Assembly: GCF_016812035.1 (NCBI RefSeq)
Contig: NZ_CP069178.1
Span: 992,001-1,056,000 of the forward strand
Source: Bulleidia sp. zg-1006
GTDB taxonomy: Bacteria > Bacillota_I > Bacilli_A > Erysipelotrichales > Erysipelotrichaceae
DNA: 64,000 bases
Direction: 5' to 3'
Numbering within the stretch: position 1 is the first letter of the stretch; each line of letters opens with the position of its first letter. The translations under genes and the position numbers were made by a program. Below, one piece after another: positions 18,458 through 33,985 of this stretch. A model generated the notes under the pieces. It ran no database searches, had not been told where the DNA came from, and was given only the letters and a program-made list of their open reading frames with translations.

Positions 18458-18478
18458 TAAAAAAGAGCCTAAGCTCTT
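18458..18478 (-). terminator. Terminator of the 81-residue protein gene
   Basis: On the minus strand AAGAGC, a 4-base loop, GCTCTT and then TTTTTAT. It starts at the gene's own stop codon. Confidence 0.6.
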
Positions 18479-18722
18479 AGAGTTTATCGCAATCGACTAA
18501 GACATAAGCTTTTTCATCTGACATCATCGTTGCCAAACGTTGCACAAATTCTTCCGCTTTTTCCTTGTCTTTAAACACACGAATTGGTTCTAAACCATTA
18601 TACATGTCGAAACTAACGTCGTAAGAACCATCATCTTCATACACACGACTAACGATAACCGCTTTAATTTGGTAACTATTATAATAAGTTACTTCTTTTT
18701 CTCGAACTACTTTTAGTAACAT
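18477..18722 (-). CDS. Small conserved-looking protein of unknown function (81 residues)
   Basis: No family is recognised. The ATG at 18722 (MLLKVVREKEVTYYN) is chosen over a GTG two codons earlier because GGGAGAG (18728-18734) lies 5 bases upstream. The sequence alternates beta-like stretches (YQIKAVIVSRVYEDD, KAYVLVDCDKL), and EPIRVFKDKEKAEEFVQRL resembles the modification-sensing ends of small alpha/beta proteins. Its ribosome site is exactly complementary to the CTCTCCC stretch shared by the small RNAs at 20.5 kb. Confidence 0.6.
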   Translation of the reverse strand: MLLKVVREKEVTYYNSYQIKAVIVSRVYEDDGSYDVSFDMYNGLEPIRVFKDKEKAEEFVQRLATMMSDEKAYVLVDCDKL

Positions 18723-18751
18723 ACACACTCTCCCTTTTTCTTAAGTATATT

Positions 18752-19552: not shown

Positions 19553-20353
19553 TTAATCAATTGAACAACCAACGGTAATCCCATGGAAACGAATGTTATT
19601 TTCTGTATAAGAAATGTACAATCTTCCATAAAAATCCCTTAGCTCTTTTCCTTCTTTTTCTAATTTCTCCAAAACAGGCAAAAGAAGCGAGCGGTCTAAT
19701 AAGAAAGGATCTTCAACATAAGCATAAACTGATAATTTTTTTCCACCTTGGAATTTTTGCACACTTGAATCCAAATCTAAGCCAATTAGTTTTCGCTTAT
19801 TCTCTAAAATTCCTAAGCCCACTTGCGTTGGAATTCTATCTTTTCCATTTAAAATATCTTCTTTACGGATATGAATGGCTACATAGCTAAATGGTAACGC
19901 ATCACTTAGCTCTTCAATGCTCTTTTTCTCCCTTTCACTTAGCTTCTTTTCTTCTGCTTGACCAAAGCTTTCAACCATATAATAATCATCCACATCGTAT
20001 TCAAAGCATTGGTTATGCGTTTTCTCTGCTTGATCAACAAAGCGCATGATTTCTTGTAAGCGGGATAAGCGTTGTTTAGAGCGAAGAATTTCTAATTCCA
20101 GTTCTTTTTCTTCATTGTTAAAATTTTCGATACATTCCGCTAAGTTTGAATTCAAAGTTTGCTTGGTTTTATCAATACTAAAATGAAAGCCTCTTAAGGA
20201 TTGGGCACTATAAATATTTAATGCGTCTAAATGATTATAATTACGGTAATTATTCGTTTCAACACGCGTACTTTCAGTAATATCAATTCGATCATAAAAA
20301 CGAATTGTTGAATTTGGCAAACCAATTCTTTTCGCAAATTCATTTACTTTCAT
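19553..20353 (-). CDS. MerR-family transcriptional regulator with C-terminal effector domain
   Basis: DNA-binding winged helix at residues 1-70 (KVNEFAKRIGLPNSTIRFYD, then NNYRNYNHLDALNI), a coiled-coil helix at about 85-115 (EEKELELEILRSKQRLSRLQ) and a C-terminal part (about 130-266) like GyrI/BmrR effector domains that bind hydrophobic ligands. No Cys/His metal site is seen. It is the first gene of a two-gene unit with the Cof hydrolase and starts after CCGGAGGT. The small-RNA cluster lies just upstream on the other strand. Confidence 0.82.
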   Translation of the reverse strand: MKVNEFAKRIGLPNSTIRFYDRIDITESTRVETNNYRNYNHLDALNIYSAQSLRGFHFSIDKTKQTLNSNLAECIENFNNEEKELELEILRSKQRLSRLQEIMRFVDQAEKTHNQCFEYDVDDYYMVESFGQAEEKKLSEREKKSIEELSDALPFSYVAIHIRKEDILNGKDRIPTQVGLGILENKRKLIGLDLDSSVQKFQGGKKLSVYAYVEDPFLLDRSLLLPVLEKLEKEGKELRDFYGRLYISYTENNIRFHGITVGCSID

Positions 20354-20434
20354 ATTCTACAAACCTCCGGTATCTATTGTAAAAGTAAATAAAAATGCTT
20401 TCAACGGCATTACTGTTTTTTAAAAATTCTTTTT

Positions 20435-20467
20435 AAATGTTCAGATAAAATTCACCTGTCTTTCATT
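20435..20467 (+). promoter_or_regulatory. Direct-repeat box of small RNA A (11-bp phased TTCA repeats)
   Basis: TTCA occurs at 20440, 20451 and 20462, exactly 11 bp apart, within a 20-base block (20435-20454) that recurs with one change at 20584-20603. Direct hexamer repeats with 11-bp phasing next to a weak -35 are typical of OmpR/PhoB-family response regulators such as Pho boxes (TTHAYA). The third repeat lies where a -35 would be. Confidence 0.55.
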
Positions 20468-20487
20468 TATTCCACACATCCTTTAGA

Positions 20488-20493
20488 TATAGT
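20488..20493 (+). promoter_or_regulatory. -10 box of small RNA A
   Basis: TATAGT, with no good -35. The start would be near 20500, at the first base of the conserved hairpin. The equivalent in unit B is TATTCT (20637-20642), at the same distance from its repeat box. Confidence 0.5.
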
Positions 20494-20499
20494 ATAGCT

Positions 20500-20575
20500 G
20501 TCAGTTGATAACAACTGATTCTTCATTCTCTCCCATTTATAGAAAGAAAACCGACTTCGGTCGGTTTTCTTTTTG
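20500..20575 (+). ncRNA. Predicted small RNA A
   Basis: About 75 nt. The parts in order are a 5' hairpin (TCAGTTG, 4-base loop, CAACTGA, 20501-20518), a pyrimidine-rich unpaired stretch with CATTCTCTCCC (20524-20534), and a strong terminator with a 13-bp stem, UUCG loop and T tail (20543-20575). No start codon or ORF is present. The unit recurs as RNA B 149 bases downstream, with box-to-hairpin spacing of exactly 64 bases in both. Conservation of the hairpin and CTCTCCC but not of the terminator sequence argues for a trans-acting RNA. I know no named family with this sequence. Confidence 0.6.
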
Positions 20576-20583
20576 GCTAGAAG

Positions 20584-20616
20584 AAATGTTCACATAAAAT
20601 TCAGATTAAATCCATT
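20584..20616 (+). promoter_or_regulatory. Direct-repeat box of small RNA B
   Basis: Same 20-base block as at 20435 with one substitution. TTCA lies at 20589 and 20600 and TCCA at 20611, again phased by 11 bp. The first repeat, TTCACA, fits a Pho-box hexamer. Confidence 0.55.
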
Positions 20617-20648
20617 ATCTTCCCATATTCTTCTTCTATTCTATGGGT

Positions 20649-20740
20649 GTCAGTTAAAAGAACTGATACTCATTCTCTCCCCCTATAAAATATTTATGTG
20701 ATGAAAACCACTTTTTTAGAAAAGTGGTTTTCATTTGTAT
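20649..20740 (+). ncRNA. Predicted small RNA B
   Basis: Paralogue of RNA A, about 90 nt. It has a 5' hairpin (TCAGTT, 5-base loop, AACTGA, 20650-20666), the same CATTCTCTCCC stretch (20671-20681) and an unrelated terminator with a 15-bp stem (20701-20715 with 20720-20734) and weak T tail. The terminator also covers the 3' end of the convergent nucleoside hydrolase gene. A role by pairing to ribosome binding sites is inference from the C-rich stretch. Confidence 0.58.
20701..20738. terminator. Shared terminator of small RNA B and the nucleoside hydrolase operon
   Basis: 15-bp perfect stem with a TTAG loop. ATTT follows on the plus strand and the minus side also ends T-rich (CATCACATAAATATTTT). 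It overlaps the iunH stop codon at 20731-20733. Confidence 0.8.
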
Positions 20741-21669
20741 TGGGCTAATAAATTAGACACGATTTCTTTAAAACGATTTCGATGAACATCTAATATCACA
20801 AAAGTGTGTCGGTCCGGAAACTTTGCATCACTCCAAAGATCCGTTACGGTTTTACCAAAGCTAATCTCAGATTGAGTTTCTACATAAACACCGGCTTTTT
20901 GCCCTTTAAAAATATCGGGATACTTCAAATAAAGAATTGGACAAACATCATGTAAGCACAACATTGGACGATAATAACGGGTGTATAAATCAATGTTCGA
21001 TTTTGTGGAAGCGAGATAAAATTCATTCACAGCCGTTTTTTCTTTCGCCATTTCCTTGACTTCATCTACTTCTAGGTAAGCTTTCATGGTCACATCTAAA
21101 CCAAACATTATAATTGGAATACCACATTTAAAGATTGTTTCCGCCGCGTGTGGATCTACATGAATATTAAATTCAGAACATGGTGTACTATTACCCCCTT
21201 GCGCCGCCCCGGCCATGATTAAAATACGTTTTACATATTTCACTAAGTCCGGATACTTATACAAACAAAGTGCCAGATTCGTTAGTGGTCCTACAGCAAC
21301 GATTTCTAAATTTCCTTTTTCTTCTAAAGCCGCTTCATAAATCGCATCCCAAGCACTCTTTTCTTCCAAAGGTGCATTTGAATCTGGAAGGATAGATCCA
21401 CCTAAACCGTCTGCTCCATGCACAAACGCCGCATCCTTTAAATCAATCAACAAAGGCTTATTAGCCCCCGGATATACTTTAATATCTTCTCTTTGGGCTA
21501 ATGAACACACATTTCTAGCGTTCACAAAGGTTCGATCATGACCAACATTACCAGCAACCGCTGATACACCTTTAATCAAAAGATTATCTAATTGAAAAGC
21601 ACATAATAGAGCAACCGCATCATCAACACCTGTGTCCGTATCAATCCATATCGGAATAACATCACTCAT
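20731..21669 (-). CDS. Nucleoside hydrolase (IUNH family), copy 1
   Basis: Hydrolyses the N-glycosidic bond of ribonucleosides to base and ribose. The calcium-binding signature DTDTGVDDAVALL is at 10-22, then VGPLTNLALCL and an EFNIHVDPHAAE loop. It lacks the His of some purine-specific members at recognisable positions, so base preference is open. It overlaps the upstream hydrolase by ATGA and is the last gene of the nupNOPQ-hydrolase operon. Confidence 0.92.
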   Translation of the reverse strand: MSDVIPIWIDTDTGVDDAVALLCAFQLDNLLIKGVSAVAGNVGHDRTFVNARNVCSLAQREDIKVYPGANKPLLIDLKDAAFVHGADGLGGSILPDSNAPLEEKSAWDAIYEAALEEKGNLEIVAVGPLTNLALCLYKYPDLVKYVKRILIMAGAAQGGNSTPCSEFNIHVDPHAAETIFKCGIPIIMFGLDVTMKAYLEVDEVKEMAKEKTAVNEFYLASTKSNIDLYTRYYRPMLCLHDVCPILYLKYPDIFKGQKAGVYVETQSEISFGKTVTDLWSDAKFPDRHTFVILDVHRNRFKEIVSNLLAQYK

Positions 21670-32311: not shown

Positions 32312-33985
32312 TTAGTGCTTTTCAAAGTCAGGTTCATCCTGATCAATATAATCCAAGATAGCTGAACGAGCAATATTACAAGCATGGTCACCCATACGCT
32401 CAATCGTTCCCAGTATATCCACATACACCGAAGAGGCAATCGAGGATGTACACTCACCATTAGCCATCCGTGTGAAGTGACCCTGACGAGCGGCGTACTC
32501 TGTTTCATCCATCTCATTTTCTTTTCCCATTAATTCATGATAAACCAATTCATCCCGTTCTTCATACACTCGAATACACAGCTTCATCATTTCATTTAAT
32601 TCATCAAACATGGTGTTCATATCCACAATCGCTGCTGGTGAGAAAGTGGTCTTATCCTCACGAACCATATTAAAGAATTCCACTAAATTAATACCTAAGT
32701 CACCAATACGTTCCAAGTTCTTCGTAATTTCTAAACCACGACGCAATTCTGTTTGATCCGATGGTGTTAATTGTTGATTTTTAGAAATCGCAATTAAGAA
32801 TTCGGTAATCTTCTTATCCAATTTATTCACTGTATCTTCACCGGTCATTAGGTTTTCATAATCTTCATCATTTCCCGGTTTATTTAGATACCCTTTAATA
32901 TCTTGATTATCTTGATCCACCACTGAAGCCATCTTCACGATTGCTGTCTTAGCTGAGTCAATCGCTACAGAAGGAATGGTGTTCACCGCTAAGTTACTAT
33001 CTAATTCATCAATATTGATTTCAATACGTTTTGGTTCTTCACCGGGAAGAATTTTACGAATTAAATCACAGAATTGGTTCATGAATGGGAAGAAAACAAT
33101 GGTTGCGGTTGTATTAAACACCATATGCGCTACCGCTATTTGCGCCATACCCGTAATACCAAATATTCCTGATAGCCAAACAATAAAGTTGGTATATGGA
33201 CGCAAGAAAATCATTCCTACGGTTGTTCCTATGATATTGAATAAGATATGGATACCGGCTGTTCGTTTGGCGGCTGTACTACCACCAATACAAGCCAAGA
33301 TACCCGTTACAGTTGTCCCGATATTTGCCCCAAATACAAATGGTAAAACCGCAATGAATTCCAAAGCCCCGGCCGCATATAATTTCTGCACAATACCAAT
33401 CGTTGCCGAAGAAGCCTGTACAGCTCCCGTCATTACCGTACCTGCAAATAAGCCTAAGAATGGATTAGTTGCCATATCCTTCGCAAATTGAGCAAATTCC
33501 GGTAAATCCTTGATGGCACTTAAAGCTGAACCCATTGCGTTTAATCCATAGAAGATTAAACCAAAGCCCATTATAATCGTACCAAGAGACTTGACTTTTG
33601 CTTTCTTACCAAAACTAACAATCATTGCCCCCAAGAATACAAAATATAAAACATAGTTATCAATATTCAAAGAAATTAATAAAGAGGTAAAAGTCGTTCC
33701 AATATTAGCGCCCATAATGATGCCGGCAGCTTGTGGTAAAGTCATCAAACCGGCTCGCACCAAACCAATTGTAATGGCGGTTGAAGCCGAAGATGACTGC
33801 ATAATAATTGTAATTAAAATACCAATAATCAAAGCGGAAAACGGGTTGGTGGTGTATTTATTGATGTAATCTCTTAATTTATCACCGGCAACGGCTTTTA
33901 GACCATCCCCCATAAAACCAATACCAAAGAGGAATAAACCGAACCCTCCTAAAATCACATCCCATCGCAAACTACTTAGATTCAT
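32312..33985 (-). CDS. Na+/phosphate cotransporter (NptA type) with C-terminal PhoU-like domain
   Basis: Sodium-coupled phosphate uptake (or efflux). Two inverted Na_Pi repeats carry IMQSSSASTAITIG and AVQASSATIGIVQ, the QSSS-type phosphate-site motifs. About eight membrane segments cover residues 10-320. The cytoplasmic end (about 370-540) is a PhoU-like helical bundle. I choose the ATG at 33985 (MNLSSLRWDVI) after GGAGGAAACG; the longer frame adds 38 basic residues and no ribosome site. 557 residues. Confidence 0.9.
   Translation of the reverse strand: MNLSSLRWDVILGGFGLFLFGIGFMGDGLKAVAGDKLRDYINKYTTNPFSALIIGILITIIMQSSSASTAITIGLVRAGLMTLPQAAGIIMGANIGTTFTSLLISLNIDNYVLYFVFLGAMIVSFGKKAKVKSLGTIIMGFGLIFYGLNAMGSALSAIKDLPEFAQFAKDMATNPFLGLFAGTVMTGAVQASSATIGIVQKLYAAGALEFIAVLPFVFGANIGTTVTGILACIGGSTAAKRTAGIHILFNIIGTTVGMIFLRPYTNFIVWLSGIFGITGMAQIAVAHMVFNTTATIVFFPFMNQFCDLIRKILPGEEPKRIEINIDELDSNLAVNTIPSVAIDSAKTAIVKMASVVDQDNQDIKGYLNKPGNDEDYENLMTGEDTVNKLDKKITEFLIAISKNQQLTPSDQTELRRGLEITKNLERIGDLGINLVEFFNMVREDKTTFSPAAIVDMNTMFDELNEMMKLCIRVYEERDELVYHELMGKENEMDETEYAARQGHFTRMANGECTSSIASSVYVDILGTIERMGDHACNIARSAILDYIDQDEPDFEKH

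Follow-up and report, generated by a model that had tools for sequence, protein, structure and literature searches.

The LhrC RNAs of Listeria monocytogenes (LhrC1-5) are multicopy sRNAs that depend strictly on the two-component system LisRK and are induced by envelope stress (PMC4132741). They carry UCCC motifs in a loop, in a single strand and in the terminator loop, and with these they bind a GGGAG site upstream of the start codon (PMC4132741). The consensus of LisR is given as not known in the LhrC study (PMC4132741). The csRNAs, or Ccn RNAs, of streptococci belong to the CiaRH regulon, and several similar RNAs of 51-202 nt are present per genome (PMC3091779). They were found through the combination of a response-regulator direct repeat, a -10 and a terminator, and between their two stem-loops an anti-SD and anti-AUG (CAU) stretch is left unpaired (PMC3091779). 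Bacteria of the order Erysipelotrichales are common in mouth and gut. A literature search that covered a minority of subscription journals returned no sRNA work on this order and no described trans-acting sRNA family for it. A genome analysis of Bulleidia extructa PP_925 annotates RNase P and SRP RNAs only (PMC12786226).

The locus described here lies in a stretch of 64,000 nucleotides (the window) from the complete, 1.545 Mb genome of Bulleidia sp. zg-1006. With a probability of roughly three in four, its two units are duplicated genes for sRNAs of 75-90 nt that are activated by a response regulator and block the Shine-Dalgarno sequences of several mRNAs. An earlier note had described a tandem pair on the plus strand, 149 bp apart, and the window sequence bears this out. 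The 20-bp upstream block AAATGTTCA[G/C]ATAAAATTCA is present at 20435-20454 and at 20584-20603 with one mismatch, and both units share the -10, the TCAGTT/AACTGA hairpin and CATTCTCTCCC that had been reported. Each also ends in a terminator of its own, the two differing in sequence, and no ORF with a ribosome-binding site is seen in the sense direction. The claim of identical spacing held in part: in each unit TGTCAGTT (20499 and 20648) lies 64 from the first base of the block, but after the hairpin the spacing is 2 nt shorter in unit 2, and the copies of CATTCTCTCCC are offset by 147. The features are collected in Table 1.

Table 1. Features of the tandem units and of their surroundings in the window
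Feature	Position	Strand	Basis
83-aa ORF, weak candidate target	18477..18734	-	its Shine-Dalgarno is the only GGGAGAG of the window outside the sRNA complements
MerR-type gene (266 aa)	19553..20353	-	
Unit 1 response-regulator-type array TTCAGATAAAA / TTCACCTGTCT / TTCATTTATTC / CACACATCCTT, 11-bp period	20440..20483	+	sequence; TTCA spacings in homologous promoters
Unit 1 -10-like box TATAGT	20488..20493	+	sequence; position equals TATTCT of unit 2 and of the B. extructa units
Predicted sRNA 1, ~77 nt	20498..20574	+	start inferred from -10 box; fold z -7.0
sRNA 1 5' hairpin GTCAGTTG/CAACTGAT	20500..20519	+	predicted fold; alignment with B. extructa units
sRNA 1 unpaired CATTCTCTCCC; complement GGGAGAGAATG is SD plus ATG	20524..20534	+	sequence; predicted fold
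sRNA 1 terminator GAAAACCGAC-TTCG-GTCGGTTTTC, T-run	20542..20574	+	predicted fold
Unit 2 response-regulator-type array TTCACATAAAA / TTCAGATTAAA / TCCATTATCTT / CCCATATTCTT	20589..20632	+	sequence
Unit 2 -10-like box TATTCT	20637..20642	+	sequence
Predicted sRNA 2, ~90 nt	20647..20736	+	fold z -7.6; covariance model R1 29.5 bits, filters off
sRNA 2 5' hairpin GTGTCAGTT/AACTGATAC	20647..20669	+	predicted fold
sRNA 2 unpaired CATTCTCTCCC	20671..20681	+	sequence; predicted fold
sRNA 2 terminator	20701..20736	+	predicted fold
Nucleoside hydrolase gene, convergent	20731..21669	-	

The likeness of the two units is well beyond that of the surrounding DNA. At the offset of 149 they are 58% identical across the 100 bases 20434-20533, against a mean of 27 (sd 4.6, maximum 50) for about 200,000 random 100-mer pairs from the window. 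The number of chance matches expected for the 32-mer pattern of hairpin and CTCTCCC is zero, and CATTCTCTCCC has no further copy on either strand of the window. Both predicted RNAs fold more stably than shuffled sequences, with 0 of 200 shuffles as good. The earlier note knew of no described family with this consensus, and cmscan of the window and 12 relatives against Rfam, at gathering and relaxed thresholds, agrees with this: neither LhrC nor another known RNA family gave a plausible match at E up to 5. Searched by DNA similarity, the whole 316-bp region has no homologue beyond short pieces, and nothing was found against phages and plasmids.

The earlier reading had missed that the 20-bp block runs on as an array with an 11-bp period. 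In unit 1, TTCA recurs at 20440, 20451 and 20462 and is followed by CACA at 20473; the array of unit 2, from 20589, reads TTCA, TTCA, TCCA (degenerate) and CCCA. An 11-bp direct repeat upstream of the -10 is an established signature of OmpR/PhoB-family regulators. As the TTCA repeats of both units sit at 11-bp steps upstream of the -10, with the layout of an OmpR/PhoB-type promoter, the array carries the signature of a response-regulator site of this family. In homologous promoters of a second family, discussed below, TTCA-TTCA spacings are 11 (37 pairs), 22 (13) and 33 (6), with others occurring once each; the spacing of 11 was partly built into the search pattern, and those of 22 and 33, which lie outside this selection, are strongly preferred as well. 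The CiaR repeat of streptococci also has an 11-bp period (PMC3091779).

The closest relative carrying the feature is Bulleidia extructa W1219 (Erysipelotrichaceae; contig NZ_ADFR01000003), which has three tandem units at the syntenic place, compared with two in zg-1006. Both Bulleidia share the order phosphoesterase, 83-aa ORF, HAD hydrolase, units, nucleoside hydrolases and nucleoside transporter, the B. extructa gene identities being taken from sequence similarity to the window. In zg-1006 a MerR-type gene lies between the HAD hydrolase and the units; it is missing from the corresponding place in B. extructa. Unit 1 of zg-1006 aligns with unit 1 of B. extructa and unit 2 with unit 3. The remaining B. 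extructa unit 2 mixes a unit-3-like promoter with a unit-1-like body, which indicates that the array of units duplicates and recombines. The check on whether hairpin and motif are conserved came out in favour of the units, with the promoter array, hairpin and CATTCTCTCCC invariant in the five units of the two species. One G-U pair in the 5' hairpin of sRNA 2 becomes G-C in B. extructa unit 3.

A search for the array together with CTCTCCC in 316 genomes of the order led to tandem units in a second family, with Massilimicrobiota and Longibaculum as named members, which we take to be of the Coprobacillaceae type. About 33 of its genomes hold RNAs with the array promoter, a GUC 5' hairpin, a CUCUCCC loop and a terminator. 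The pattern TTCA-N7-TTCA plus CTCTCCC matches about 40 times in second-family genomes versus 4 times for the reversed control. The array and -10 are followed by a 5' hairpin (G/A)TGTCTTAAGAAAGACA, an AU-rich linker with an invariant TAAT, a second hairpin with (CC)CUCUCCC in its loop, and the terminator, the loop of which is often UUCCCC.

The five Bulleidia units are too alike for a covariation test, and the covariation therefore comes from 20 second-family units. In these, 15 of 25 pairs have compensatory changes versus 8.2 in shuffles, 89.7% of cells are paired versus 42-63% in slid controls, and 45 cells are changed on both sides versus 12.9 when shuffled. The stems thus show the compensatory changes that mark a structured noncoding RNA, most strongly in the second hairpin and the terminator; in the 5' hairpin only one pair has a change in both partners. 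Several genomes have a different sequence in the second stem (TATAGACGA, GTATAAGTGA, TGTAGGTGC and others), and CUCUCCC stays constant, an invariance that stems partly from selection since the units were found by this motif. A constant motif on a rewritten stem fits a recognition sequence displayed on a scaffold. The conservation, the change in copy number between the two Bulleidia and the covariation in relatives support the earlier proposal of duplicated sRNA genes; both RNAs would presumably act in trans. The architecture of the RNAs, its conservation and covariation, and the array can be read from the sequences compared here.

The covariance model R1 detects the RNAs in most genera of the second family, often in tandem and including units without the exact array. 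In a class-wide sample it gave no match at E<=0.001 outside the second family, and genome-wide it did not find the Bulleidia units, which are without the second hairpin. With filters off in a 1.2 kb region, the two window units rank first and second (29.5 and 23.8 bits). That the Bulleidia and second-family RNAs form one family is held with moderate confidence, on the strength of promoter, 5' hairpin and motif and not of a strong model score. As a structured RNA and as one apparently controlled by a response regulator, the family is well supported.

A conserved intergenic stretch is common to two other genus members (L067, minus strand, from ~23; L070, minus strand, from 1501 on). It has a promoter with an 11-bp array, CTCTCCCCC and GTTTCCGTTTCCCGGCATATACCGG, several C-rich stretches and a terminator-like hairpin, and may be a third RNA of the regulon, longer than the others. 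Copy numbers were highest in genus g6 (L054, L053, L055, L056), at three to five units per genome, and some of these units have CTCTCTCCC and three to four repeats in their arrays. At another locus (L083, G060:C1:1562600 / G060:C1:1564851), the array beside a DDE transposase gene matches the one of a nearby sRNA unit exactly and is perhaps an interrupted extra copy.

The current proposal is that a phosphorylated OmpR/PhoB-family regulator, probably of an envelope-stress system, would bind the 11-bp TTCA array and thereby activate the -10 promoter. The 5' hairpin and the intrinsic terminator would protect the RNA, and the exposed CAUUCUCUCCC would pair with GGGAG(AG) Shine-Dalgarno sequences, sometimes as far as the AUG. 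Through this pairing, several mRNAs would be kept from starting translation. In the second family, the motif would be offered by the loop of the extra hairpin, often with a contribution from the UUCCCC of the terminator loop. Transcription, the regulator with its signal, and target repression are parts of the scheme that we infer. As CATTCTCTCCC reads in reverse complement as GGGAGAGAATG, which combines a Shine-Dalgarno and its start codon, and csRNAs and LhrC carry comparable motifs, the RNAs should by analogy repress the translation of several mRNAs.

The best predicted pairings in zg-1006 are with rpoD (-27.1 kcal/mol, about 16 contiguous bp with sRNA 1) and a lipoprotein gene (-25.2 kcal/mol), on a background of 90 start regions with a mean of -10.7, sd 3.3 and a best value of -19.9. 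In B. extructa both pairings are only partly kept, with values of about -11 to -15. Further candidate targets are parC and a potA-like ABC ATPase, both of which have GGGAGAG in the two Bulleidia genomes, a PTS EIIA, and the neighbouring 83-aa ORF, of whose GGGAGAG only GGGAGA remains in B. extructa. GGGAGAG ahead of ATG shows no clear excess over the reversed control (10 vs 9; 14 vs 9). Given this and the partial conservation of the long pairings, no target is considered established.

The strict form of the promoter box has 12 matches in 70 genomes of the genus, and the reversed control has none. In related genomes the box also precedes genes for a PrsA-like PPIC foldase (several genomes), VTC+DUF4956, an LCP protein, a clostripain-family peptidase and a lipoprotein-like protein. 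Its place before the PrsA-like foldase, LCP and VTC polyphosphate polymerase genes suggests a cell-envelope regulon, with envelope stress as the signal. In a search for autoregulation, none of the five OmpR-type regulator loci of zg-1006 had a convincing array. In B. extructa, a single TTCATACTAAATTCATA box lies upstream of just one regulator (L142); its nearest zg-1006 relative is 39% identical and without the array. This OmpR-type regulator (L142 / L240, G091:C15:309879) has no close zg-1006 counterpart and is followed by a 522-aa protein, which is probably its kinase. Elsewhere in zg-1006 (L244, 1384000-1390000), a BceR-like response regulator gene lies between a transposase-like ORF and a truncated copy of its own N-terminal part.

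Other readings of the locus concern the units themselves. It could be postulated that on the minus strand they act as 5' leaders or attenuators for the MerR-type gene, which starts immediately to the left of unit 1 on that strand. This alternative was rejected because B. extructa has three units and no MerR gene there; promoter order, T-runs and array also point to the plus strand, and the reading is scarcely credible. It is very improbable too that unit 2 is essentially a bidirectional terminator of the convergent nucleoside hydrolase operon, with unit 1 a copy that has decayed. The 3' end of the nucleoside hydrolase gene does lie at the terminator of unit 2, which may also serve that gene, but the array, hairpin and CATTCTCTCCC upstream of the terminator are conserved across the five units of both species, and the terminator of unit 1 is intact and its own.

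The remaining alternatives accept the RNAs and differ on signal or action. The regulator might be the phosphate regulator PhoP, which would place the RNAs in a phosphate-starvation response and leave their sRNA nature untouched. Pho boxes of other phyla resemble TTCACA-N5-TTCAGA, and the VTC polyphosphate polymerase genes bear the same box as the units. However, among the upstream regions of PstS, PhoU and PhoB-type regulator genes that were examined, the PhoB-type regulator gene of one relative (G063, L120) has a TTAACA-type array instead, and clear TTCA arrays are absent from pstS loci in relatives; the Bulleidia genomes have no PstS match. PhoP is thus disfavoured and unlikely. The sole PhoU-domain match of the zg-1006 genome (window ~32363-32875, minus strand) lies within a 596-aa open frame, probably a Na/phosphate cotransporter. 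It is distinctly unlikely that the RNAs, real and stress-induced, act mainly as a protein-binding sponge through the C-rich patch. Short, repeated, C-rich single-stranded motifs in multiple copies would suit protein titration too, as would the poor conservation of predicted targets, yet the motif exactly complements a Shine-Dalgarno plus start codon, as in csRNAs and LhrC, which are reported to pair with mRNAs (PMC3091779, PMC4132741). On the preferred reading, the RNAs most likely form a real family that had not been described before, and as two-component-activated, multicopy, C-rich sRNAs they belong to a known kind of regulator. The finding brings a defined promoter box, a covariance model and testable candidate targets.

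A wider and doubtful extension is an order-wide stress module of Erysipelotrichales, in which a response regulator would drive envelope genes as well as a set of C-rich sRNAs, 1-5 in each genome. The RNAs would then be a general translation brake covering Shine-Dalgarno sequences, possibly that of rpoD in zg-1006, and would have arisen independently of LhrC and csRNAs.

Among known systems, the csRNAs have exactly the layout of the Bulleidia units, in whose predicted folds the unpaired anti-SD/anti-AUG stretch lies between two stem-loops. The Bulleidia units differ from the csRNAs in the promoter: the CiaR box NTTAAG-N5-TTTAAG is not found 10 bp before the -10, and neither promoter contains TTTAAG. 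The Erysipelotrichales promoters have TTCA-N7-TTCA arrays of 2-4 repeats instead, and a sequence relation to csRNAs is not shown. As in LhrC, loops of the second-family relatives hold C-rich motifs, CUCUCCC in the extra hairpin and UUCCCC in the terminator. UCCC-type motifs number one in the Bulleidia units and two, in hairpin and terminator loops, in most second-family units. Sequence and order differ from those of LhrC, Rfam gave no match to an LhrC family at E up to 5, and the TTCA array is defined for the Erysipelotrichales RNAs, in contrast to the lack of a LisR consensus (PMC4132741). RsaE/RoxS and other UCCC sRNAs of Bacillota likewise pair a C-rich loop with Shine-Dalgarno sequences; their structure differs, and the Erysipelotrichales RNAs have no Rfam match. 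By analogy, and with no homology claimed, the Erysipelotrichales RNAs most likely act like LhrC and the csRNAs. If the family is truly unrelated to them, the pairing of a two-component system with multicopy C-rich sRNAs would have arisen at least three times in Bacillota.
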